Part shown: positions 16,924-18,121 of the stretch, piece after piece
Layout of the letters: each line of letters begins with the position of its first letter
Position numbering within the stretch: the first letter of the stretch is position 1
Source: Nitrosomonadales bacterium
GTDB lineage: Bacteria > Pseudomonadota > Gammaproteobacteria > Burkholderiales > Methylophilaceae
Assembly: GCA_024642775.1 (NCBI GenBank)
Contig: JAHEAL010000003.1
Span: forward strand, 1-63,993
Length of the DNA: 63,993 bases
Direction: 5' to 3'
Notes under the pieces: generated by a model
Database searches by the model: none
Told to the model about the DNA's origin: nothing
The model's input: the letters and a program-made list of their open reading frames with translations, nothing else
Translations under genes and position numbers: made by a program

Positions 16924-17160
16924 ATGGATATTTTAAAAACAGTACGTAATTGGTCAGCTGCACTTTCAGAAACAGTAGTAAGTTTGTTGGCACTTGGAAT
17001 CGTTTTACAAATCTTAATGGGTAACTCAGCAATTCCCTTTTTTGGTGAGCCTAGGATAATCGAAACCGTTACAGGACATATTAATGCATTGGGCGGTGAA
17101 GGTATTGTCGGTTTAGTTGCTATTTGGGTGCTTTACTCTATTTGGAAAGCAAGAAAATAG
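16924..17160 (+). CDS. Small membrane protein of unknown function upstream of rhodopsin
   Basis: I do not recognise a named family. The 78 residues read as an amphipathic N-terminus (1-15), a hydrophobic helix (about 16-32, VVSLLALGIVLQILMG), a loop with AIPFFGEPR and a Gly-rich stretch, a second hydrophobic helix (about 60-74) and a basic tail KARK. The gene has a very good ribosome binding site, GGAGAGG at 16911-16917, spaced 6 bases from the ATG. It has its own strong terminator, a ~190-base leader region and no operon partner. That layout fits a highly expressed monocistronic gene. It lies directly upstream of the rhodopsin, but a functional link is inference only. Confidence 0.8.
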   Translation: MDILKTVRNWSAALSETVVSLLALGIVLQILMGNSAIPFFGEPRIIETVTGHINALGGEGIVGLVAIWVLYSIWKARK

Positions 17161-17179
17161 TCTTAGTATAAGTTTTATA

Positions 17180-17207
17180 AAAACCCTTGGAAACAAGGGT
17201 TTTTTTT
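17180..17207 (+). terminator. Rho-independent terminator after the small membrane protein
   Basis: A 10-bp perfect stem, AAAACCCTTG paired with CAAGGGTTTT, closes a GAAA tetraloop and runs into eight T residues. It begins 20 bases after the stop codon. Transcription of the small gene should therefore end before the rhodopsin leader. Confidence 0.93.
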
Positions 17208-17240
17208 GCAACTTTTTTTTAAAGATTACGTCTTACCAAA

Positions 17241-17257
17241 AATCAGTTATACTGATT
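17241..17257. promoter_or_regulatory. Perfect palindrome overlapping a TATACT element upstream of rhodopsin
   Basis: AATCAGT-TAT-ACTGATT is a perfect 7-bp inverted repeat with a 3-base centre. Its centre and right arm contain TATACT (17248-17253), a good -10 element, although no convincing -35 sits at the right distance. It could be an operator over the rhodopsin promoter, or simply a small RNA hairpin. It lies 130 bases before the rhodopsin start. Confidence 0.45.
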
Positions 17258-17265
17258 GTGGTCTT

Positions 17266-17309
17266 TAAATTTAGTTTAATGGCTGAAGAGAGATATTAAA
17301 TTAAATTTA
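17266..17309 (+). promoter_or_regulatory. Long hairpin in the rhodopsin 5' leader
   Basis: Bases 17266-17280 pair with 17295-17309 over 15 consecutive positions, 14 Watson-Crick and one G-U. They enclose a 14-base purine-rich loop, GGCTGAAGAGAGAT. The AGAGAT in the loop, and a second AGAGAT at 17338-17343, are both complementary to ATCTCT at 17381-17386, the six bases just before the rhodopsin ATG. The leader could thus switch between structures that free or mask the start region. Confidence 0.5.
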
Positions 17310-17386
17310 CAGGTATTTAAAAATTTCCTAACGAGAAAGAGATGACAGTTTCTTGGGAGGTCATTATTTTTTAATGGAGAATCTCT

Positions 17387-18121
17387 ATGGAAGTAGGCGG
17401 ATTTAACTTAGTATATAACTCGCTGTCTTTTGCCATCGCTACATTTGGCGCCTCGACAGTATTTTTCTTTGCTCAGCGTTCTCAAGTCGCTCCAGCATAC
17501 AAAACAGCCCTAACATTATCTGGACTGGTTTGTTTAATCGCTTTTTATCATTACGTAAGAATATTTGATAGCTTTAACGAGGCTTATCATCTTGTGGATG
17601 GTGCAGTCGAAGCAACGGGTGCTCAGTTTAATGATGCATATCGTTACGTCGATTGGTTATTAACAGTTCCACTTTTACTTCTTGAATTAGTTTTAGTAAT
17701 GAGACTATCAAGAGAAGAAACATACTCAAAAGGAACTAAGCTTGCTGTTGCGGCTGCAGTAATGGTGGTACTAGGTTATCCTGGTGAAGTAATCACTGAT
17801 GCGGCTATGTTTGGTGACAGATGGATGTGGTGGGTTCTTGCAATGATTCCATTCTTATACATTGTATGGGATTTAGTTGCTGGTCTAGGTGCATCAATCA
17901 GTAAACAGCCTAAAGCTGTTCAAGGCTTAGTAAGTAAAGCTAGAACGCTCACAATTGTTTCATGGTGTTTTTACCCAGTTGTTTTTGTATTCCCAATGTT
18001 AGGCCTTTCTACAGGCGTAGCTGTTCAAGTTGGTTATACAATTGCAGACGTAGTTGCAAAAGCACTATTTGGTGTAATGATTTATATGATTGCTCAGCGC
18101 AAATCTGACGCTGGTGCATAG
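17387..18121 (+). CDS. Light-driven proton pump, xanthorhodopsin-like proteorhodopsin
   Basis: Seven-helix retinal protein of 244 residues. On helix C, RYVDWLLTVPLLLLE gives Asp89 (Schiff-base counterion), Thr93 and Glu100 (proton donor), the DTE set of outward proton pumps. His55 (YHYVRIF) is the usual His partner of the counterion. Lys225 in DVVAKALFG binds retinal. Leu97 at the spectral-tuning position predicts green absorption. The helix E-F region and GYTIADVVAK resemble xanthorhodopsin. However, by alignment, the small glycine that lets xanthorhodopsin hold an antenna carotenoid is Trp149 here. No cleavable signal peptide is evident. A GGAGA ribosome site lies 6 bases upstream. Retinal-synthesis genes follow after a terminator. 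Confidence 0.96.
   Translation: MEVGGFNLVYNSLSFAIATFGASTVFFFAQRSQVAPAYKTALTLSGLVCLIAFYHYVRIFDSFNEAYHLVDGAVEATGAQFNDAYRYVDWLLTVPLLLLELVLVMRLSREETYSKGTKLAVAAAVMVVLGYPGEVITDAAMFGDRWMWWVLAMIPFLYIVWDLVAGLGASISKQPKAVQGLVSKARTLTIVSWCFYPVVFVFPMLGLSTGVAVQVGYTIADVVAKALFGVMIYMIAQRKSDAGA

Follow-up and report, generated by a model that had tools for sequence, protein, structure and literature searches.

The 5' untranslated leader of the ompA mRNA in Escherichia coli is an mRNA stabilizer of which the length, the two hairpins and the detailed structure have been described. In translational riboswitches of the preQ1 and SAM-II types, a hairpin loop forms a pseudoknot with the ribosome site. According to the accessible part of PMC7509114, the stability of the ompA mRNA depends on growth, being high when cells grow fast and lower when they grow slowly, and the small RNA (sRNA) MicA binds the translational start site of ompA and recruits Hfq. 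In situ, rhodopsin genes often rank with the most strongly transcribed genes that marine bacteria have, and the causes of changes in rhodopsin transcripts are described as not well understood (PMC5120137, accessible part). In the mostly open-access literature, as judged by titles and the beginnings of abstracts, we found no description of a leader RNA for rhodopsin; also, none is reported in the accessible parts of PMC5069720, PMC5120137, PMC6794327 and PMC2704228.

The DNA analysed here is a stretch of 63,993 nucleotides (called the window) from a Nitrosomonadales bacterium, a coastal marine methylotroph, and the leader in question lies directly 5' of the gene for its light-driven proton pump (Table 1). 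In marine OM43 bacteria, this rhodopsin is termed xantho-like and is a proton pump (PMC6794327, accessible part). On the 3' side of the gene, Pfam-type matches are found to polyprenyl synthetase, an FAD amine-oxidase-type enzyme, phytoene synthase, lycopene cyclase and beta-carotene dioxygenase, and these genes thus correspond to a retinal pathway. On the 5' side, an intrinsic terminator (arms at 17179-17189 and 17194-17204) should isolate the leader from upstream transcription, and a stem-loop with a T run also occurs in all eight relatives that share the leader. Upstream of the terminator, we also noticed an ORF at 16924-17160 encoding a hydrophobic protein of 78 amino acids with no Pfam match; its C-terminal part is likewise encoded upstream of rhodopsin in the eight relatives. 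The sequence of the window was read directly, and all features listed in an initial annotation of this DNA lie where that annotation had placed them.

Table 1. Positions of the leader elements and of the neighbouring features in the window
Feature	Position	Strand	Remark
Intrinsic terminator after the 78-aa ORF, followed by a T run	17179..17204	+	11-bp perfect inverted repeat, 4-nt loop
Palindrome AATCAGT-TAT-ACTGATT around the -10 box	17241..17257	.	read in the sequence
-10 box TATACT, inside the palindrome	17248..17253	+	conserved; TATTCT or TATTTT in relatives
P1, 5'-terminal hairpin of about 21 bp	17262..17313	+	pair cells kept 186/189
AGAGAU (AGAGGU in eight relatives), P1 loop and 3' flank	17289..17294	+	complementary to AUCUCU 17381-17386
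P2 hairpin	17327..17360	+	stem 17327-17329/17358-17360 and 17332-17338/17349-17355
P2 loop GAGAUGACAG	17339-17348	+	family pattern GA(U/A)GA(N)AG
Ten-codon ORF MTVSWEVIIF and stop, from the P2 loop to just before the SD	17342..17374	+	possible translated upstream ORF
P3, SD hairpin AUGGAG-AAU-CUCUAU	17374..17388	+	SD paired with the spacer and the first bases of the start codon
GGAGAATCTCTATG, SD, spacer and start codon	17376..17389	+	invariant in nine leaders
Xantho-like proton-pumping rhodopsin gene	17387..18121	+	PF01036, 123.7 bits; class name from PMC6794327 (accessible part)

The transcript is predicted, from the conserved -10 box, to start at about 17260, and no good match to a -35 element is present at 17-nt spacing from that box. 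The palindrome, which had been proposed as a signal of the leader, does exist and does overlap the TATACT element; since the -10 box is inside it and the predicted start is downstream, however, it is most likely DNA of the promoter or of an operator that lies outside the mRNA. Only its left half (ATCAG) is invariant in the nine leaders, the right half (CTGAT) being kept in seven. A palindrome with 7-bp arms appears in 16% of 5000 dinucleotide shuffles of 17210-17380, the control used also for the stem and the AGAGAT copies below, and the palindrome alone is therefore unremarkable. In all nine leaders, P1 begins 2-6 nt after the predicted start (8 to 12 nt from the -10 box), which would place the hairpin inside the mRNA as had been supposed, the start being a prediction. 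The 127-nt segment from about 17260 to 17386 would then be the 5' untranslated leader of the rhodopsin mRNA, with a predicted 5' end.

The leader folds more stably than its shuffles, with a z-score of -2.0 for 17255-17400 (9 of 200 shuffles being as stable) and -3.4 for 17210-17400 (1 of 200). For the fold of the alignment, the z-score is -6.6, and none of 1000 column shuffles, in which dinucleotides are not preserved, is as stable. Three hairpins, P1, P2 and P3, were found by RNAalifold in the unedited MAFFT alignment with seven pairs changed on both sides (two-sided pairs). In a model-fitted alignment, 97.5% of 396 cells pair and eight pairs are two-sided; the slid controls give one to three such pairs, and 500 shuffles give a mean of 3.1 with none reaching eight. 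Covariation, which had been set beforehand as the test that could refute a structured leader, is hence found. Given that the shuffles ignore relatedness and that the nine sequences represent about three clades and thus few events, we regard the evidence from covariation as good, not overwhelming. The pairing and the covariation in nine leaders bear out the initial annotation in its central proposal, a structured leader of the rhodopsin gene, and our comparison shows that this leader is a conserved structured RNA under selection.

Degrees of conservation differ along the leader. Between the KB13-type and SFB-type subclades, the fourfold-degenerate sites of the rhodopsin gene are 58% identical, and the identity amounts to 91% in P1, 90% in the U-rich linker, 95% in the block from the SD to the start codon, 79% in the P2 loop, 62-69% in the P2 arms and 40% in the linker before the SD. 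Identity to the window is 54% at the fourfold sites and amounts to 70-76% in P1, 95-100% in the SD block and 73-80% in the P2 loop, with 30-47% in the P2 arms. In P1 and at the ribosome site, it is therefore the sequence itself that is preserved; in P2, it is the shape of the hairpin, together with a conserved loop.

The 15-bp stem with one G-U pair noted earlier (17266-17280 with 17295-17309) is present as part of the longer hairpin P1, and a stem of that length with at most one G-U pair is rare, being found in 1 of 1500 shuffles. When an arm of P1 is slid along the alignment, 38-98 of the 189 pair cells remain. AGAGR is invariant in the P1 loop and its flank. Two copies of AGAGAT, uncommon in shuffles (0.7% of 5000), had been proposed to pair with the ATCTCT abutting the start codon, and the two have fared differently. 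The complement in the P1 loop is kept in all nine leaders (duplex of -6.5 to -7.8 kcal/mol), albeit with no covariation: a change of A to G at one loop site preserves a G-U pair, and the complement is otherwise invariant. The second copy (17338-17343), in contrast, reads AGAGAT in none of the eight relatives and is rejected as a conserved pairing partner; the site spans the top of the P2 stem and part of the P2 loop, and GAGAT is kept there in L002, L005, L006 and L007. Also abandoned is an ATGAC/GTCAT stem at 17342-17346/17360-17364, both halves of which are absent from the eight relatives and which clashes with the conserved P2.

P2, which in the window reads CCT..CGAGAAA/TTTCTTG..AGG, was not part of the initial annotation. 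Its stem differs in sequence between clades, and the pairing is kept by compensatory changes. In an alignment with the arms placed by hand and right-justified on the loop, 90 of 99 cells are kept with four two-sided pairs, compared with 28-57 cells and zero to two such pairs after sliding; the unedited MAFFT alignment gives the same hairpins, and in the model-fitted alignment the lower helix of ten pairs contains six two-sided pairs. Swapping the arms between clades does not always break the pairing (11 of 12 for a KB arm with the window arm), because a U-rich arm can pair with many partners.

In the sequence after P1, we noticed a run of at least five T directly following the hairpin in seven of the eight relatives, the length of which differs by single bases between species; at this place, L006 reads UUAUUU and the window UAUUUAAAAAUUU. 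A transcription attenuator was considered and rejected, as the U run after P1 is not common to the window and L006. A simple scan of the window for terminators called no terminator-like site in the leader, and the same scan also missed the terminator at 17179-17204. A longer ORF starting from the P1 loop (M-x-RGI...) was likewise rejected: it is confined to the eight relatives, stops after five codons in L003 and is shifted in frame by the indels of the T run, the window reading only MAEERY. Another short frame, starting at an out-of-frame ATG that overlaps the SD (17374-17406 in the window), runs for ten codons into rhodopsin in eight of nine leaders and reads MENLYGSRRI or MENLYGSRWI; L003 has none, and in L008 the ORF from P2 continues in the frame of this ORF.

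At the ribosome site, we found a self-complementarity (ATGGAG-AAT-CTCTAT) that is absent from the initial annotation and would form the hairpin P3. All six pairs of P3 are available in eight of the nine leaders and five in L003, and its energy is -8.6 kcal/mol at 5 °C, -7.2 at 15 °C and -3.9 at 37 °C. Taken alone, P3 is not significant, given that 44 of 500 alignment shuffles fold as well. Its predicted occupancy in the window is 0.10-0.18 (0.10 at 15 °C), and P3 would thus be a minority state because other pairings compete. The predicted exposure of the SD at 15 °C is 0-0.21 in the eight relatives versus 0.42 in the window. Among the 27 ORFs that were called mechanically in the window and have an SD-like motif, that of rhodopsin ranks 17th from the lowest in exposure at 15 °C and 11th at 37 °C; masking of the SD in the window is therefore not unusual by this measure, and the proposal that the leader masks the start site is not borne out there.

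In terms of distribution, a rhodopsin of the same kind is encoded in 26 of 31 genomes of the genus, that of the window included and one of the 26 being a fragment. In a DNA search with the leader of a relative, the leader was found in nine of the 31, with one copy each and only before rhodopsin; the carriers include beta proteobacterium KB13 and Methylophilaceae LSUCC0717 and LSUCC0665. The nine leaders were used to build a covariance model, which found the same nine and no others among 101 genomes, in a search with stricter filters and 32 candidates scored per genome. Each of the nine genomes contains a single copy of the sequence GGAGAATCTCTATG, which is absent from the other 22. Six entries (L031-L036) duplicate L004, L007, L005, L003, L002 and L009 and were counted once, and in G024 and G023 the rhodopsin gene is cut by the contig end at or near its start, so that the leaders there cannot be judged. 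When the model (R1) was applied to 35 other rhodopsin loci (31 distinct), none was significant (best E-value, 1.2), the loci of HTCC2181 and the freshwater tandem-rhodopsin loci included. In the viral collection, no relative of the rhodopsin was found, and six viral contigs matching a P1 pattern have no model match at that pattern, the best E-value elsewhere being 0.1. Rfam gives no match at the gathering score across the 64-kb window; on 17150-17450, its best match (E-value, 0.05) is to an sRNA family on the other strand at 25.2 bits, compared with a gathering score of 47. The rhodopsin leader is a new RNA element with no Rfam family, though one of a familiar kind.

Two HTCC2181-like relatives, L010 and L011, have a different leader upstream of rhodopsin, in which a common TGCACTGGGAGGRATGCAGATTCTCCAT block was recognized by eye. 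The TTCTCC of this block is complementary to the GGAGAA of the SD, and the leader of L010 and L011 is possibly an independent, putative SD-masking leader.

We also looked at the RNA chaperone genes of these genomes. The match to Hfq is weak (57-60 bits, in a 65-codon frame) in six of the nine leader genomes, compared with 85-94 bits in another 14 members of the genus; no match was obtained in the window's own genome, G011 and G020, all of which are incomplete. The RNA-binding motif of Hfq, YKHA, reads FIHA or FMHA in L144 786-983 (G015), L145 (G007) and L147 (G001) and is kept in L146 (G014) and L148 (G019).

How, then, might the leader act? The reading that we favour, tentatively and with confidence a little short of evenly balanced, is a cis-acting leader for post-transcriptional control, in which a hairpin shielding the 5' end, a hairpin for recognition and a self-complementary ribosome site are combined; the structure itself is seen in the alignments, and the function is what we infer from it. 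P1, located 2-6 nt from the predicted 5' end, would most likely be a shield against mRNA decay that depends on the 5' end. It is true that P1 is kept in sequence as well as in pairing, which a pure shield does not need. P2 probably presents its conserved purine-rich loop for contact, the partner being a protein, an sRNA or some other region of the leader RNA. The AUCUCU spacer could pair either with its own SD in P3 or with the P1 loop. Because the ribosome site is self-complementary, the loading of ribosomes would probably be held below its maximum, at a level set by competition among binding of the 30S subunit, P3 and the contact with the P1 loop. Together, P1, P2 and the start site would set the lifetime and translation of an abundant transcript. 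In the OM43 isolate NB0046, the rhodopsin mRNA is present at 16-36 copies per cell and drops 18-fold in nutrient-deplete medium (PMC5120137, accessible part). This change with nutrients means that control exists and does not indicate its level, and these data fit a regulated and abundant mRNA. The conserved leader thus suggests that the rhodopsin mRNA is tuned after its synthesis.

The same elements can be read in other ways. A signal sensed at the P2 loop might move AUCUCU between the SD hairpin and the P1 loop, which would make the leader a new class of translational switch; we consider this unlikely, and, if true, such a switch would couple the synthesis of the proton pump to the nutrient or energy state with no dedicated transcription factor. 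The stricter form of the idea, a true RNA switch in which a ligand or ion bound at P1 or P2 shifts AUCUCU between a P1-loop pseudoknot and P3 and thereby turns rhodopsin translation on or off, is quite unlikely, although it would account for AGAGR and AUCUCU being kept in nine of nine leaders, for a loop duplex stronger (-6.5 to -7.8 kcal/mol) than P3 (-3.9 kcal/mol) and for a P2 loop conserved on a drifting stem. A fold closing the SD with the 3' arm of P1, which excludes P1, is moreover the minimum at 37 °C in L002, L004, L006 and L007, i.e., in four of five KB13-type leaders (the exception is KB13 itself). This fold is, however, not conserved: in the window it lies 18.9 kcal/mol above the P1 fold at 15 °C and is equalled by 70 of 200 scrambled linkers, compared with 3 of 200 for L008, 5 for L004, 12 for L002, 17 for L005, 20 for L006, 25 for L007, 59 for L003 and 50 for L009 at the same temperature. 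As a general fold, it was rejected, being better than chance in the other six leaders and no better in the window, L003 and L009, and we keep the modelled alternative as a possibility for the subclade only. The reading as an RNA switch, once proposed from competing pairings, is thus not supported by this fold. Confinement to one gene and one subclade, a loop-spacer pairing with no two-sided change and the lack of any Rfam match, and so of a known aptamer class, also speak against a switch. The conserved P2 loop on its drifting stem, or else the U-rich linker or the P1 loop, might instead be where an sRNA or an RNA-binding protein acting in trans lands and tunes rhodopsin synthesis to nutrients, which we regard as rather unlikely. 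An Hfq-family gene is present in six of the nine leader genomes, but the Hfq of G001, G007 and G015 is short and lacks YKHA. CsrA (PF02599) was found in none of the 31 genomes of the genus, 14 of which are at least 90% complete, with 3 of 14 control genomes positive, and a leader controlled by CsrA was rejected for this reason. We know of no candidate sRNA for the leader; the nutrient dependence of the rhodopsin mRNA in NB0046 (PMC5120137, accessible part) is, for its part, in line with such a partner.

Conservation of the P2 loop could instead reflect the start codon of a short ORF. Translation from the ATG in or beside this loop would run for about ten codons and end at the SD; this would open P3 and link the translation of rhodopsin with that of the short ORF. 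An ATG-initiated ORF of at least ten codons that ends 10-20 nt before the rhodopsin start is found in seven of nine leaders, compared with 4-9% of the shuffles of each leader; it has exactly ten codons with a VSK(S/N/G)Q(F/Y) core in six of the seven, the window reading MTVSWEVIIF. Nonetheless, it is not shared by all members (the ATG is missing from L004, and in L008 no stop codon comes ahead of the SD), inspection by eye gives no convincing SD for the ATG, the codons of the core coincide with the 3' arm of P2 and may be kept for pairing, and related leaders are not independent trials; a translated upstream ORF is thus decidedly unlikely in our judgement. A thermosensor, as had been proposed, would close the SD by P3 in the cold and open it in warmth. 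The weakening of P3 on heating (-8.6 kcal/mol at 5 °C, -3.9 at 37 °C) agrees with this idea, and so does a modest rise of the predicted SD exposure in the eight relatives (0-0.13 at 5 °C, 0.01-0.27 at 25 °C and 0.10-0.36 at 37 °C). Every hairpin weakens with heat, however, and the predicted exposure in the window does not rise but goes slightly down, from 0.43 at 5 °C to 0.37 at 37 °C; at 25 °C, five of the eight relatives have reached no more than 0.01-0.02, heat favours another SD-closing fold in KB13-type leaders, and neither a four-U or ROSE pattern nor a matching Rfam family was recognized. We therefore hold an RNA thermometer to be very improbable. Equally improbable is conservation at the level of DNA, i.e., an operator or promoter-proximal element of which the hairpins are by-products. 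The sequence of the P1 arms is conserved, and they start directly downstream of the predicted transcript start, as such an element would have it, but P2 drifts freely in its stem with the pairing kept, and five pairs of P1 are G-U wobbles in 6 to 9 of the nine sequences, which a DNA palindrome does not favour; an RNA accordingly fits better than a DNA operator.

The cis-acting, post-transcriptional leader that we favour draws its interest from the gene on which the element sits and from its cultured carriers. In strains such as KB13 and the LSUCC isolates, it would provide a handle for the post-transcriptional control of marine phototrophy.

Among known systems, RNA thermometers of the ROSE and four-U types resemble the leader in having the SD in a hairpin weakened by heat; in our case, no such motif was recognized, and the predicted SD exposure in the window does not rise. 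Coupled upstream ORFs resemble the ten-codon ORF ending at the rhodopsin SD in most leaders, but this putative upstream ORF is missing in two of nine and has no clear ribosome site of its own. With translational riboswitches of the preQ1 and SAM-II types, the leader shares a hairpin loop complementary to the bases beside the start codon, whereas it differs from them in having no Rfam match, being limited to a single gene and a single subclade, and showing no covariation in the pseudoknot. The candidate structured RNAs of marine bacteria (Meyer et al. 2009, PMC2704228, accessible part) likewise came from comparative genomics, which located such an RNA upstream of a gene in the small, AT-rich genome of a marine bacterium; that study concerns Pelagibacter, and its main text, in the part accessible, is free of the word rhodopsin. 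The stabilizing leader of the ompA type in E. coli is similar in its length, in a stem-loop near the 5' end (the start being predicted here), in a second hairpin and in an AU-rich linker, and it also belongs to an abundant mRNA for a membrane protein, the mRNA level varying with growth. In contrast to ompA, the rhodopsin leader has a conserved sequence in both arms of P1 and a self-complementary ribosome site, and the likeness between the two is one of layout.
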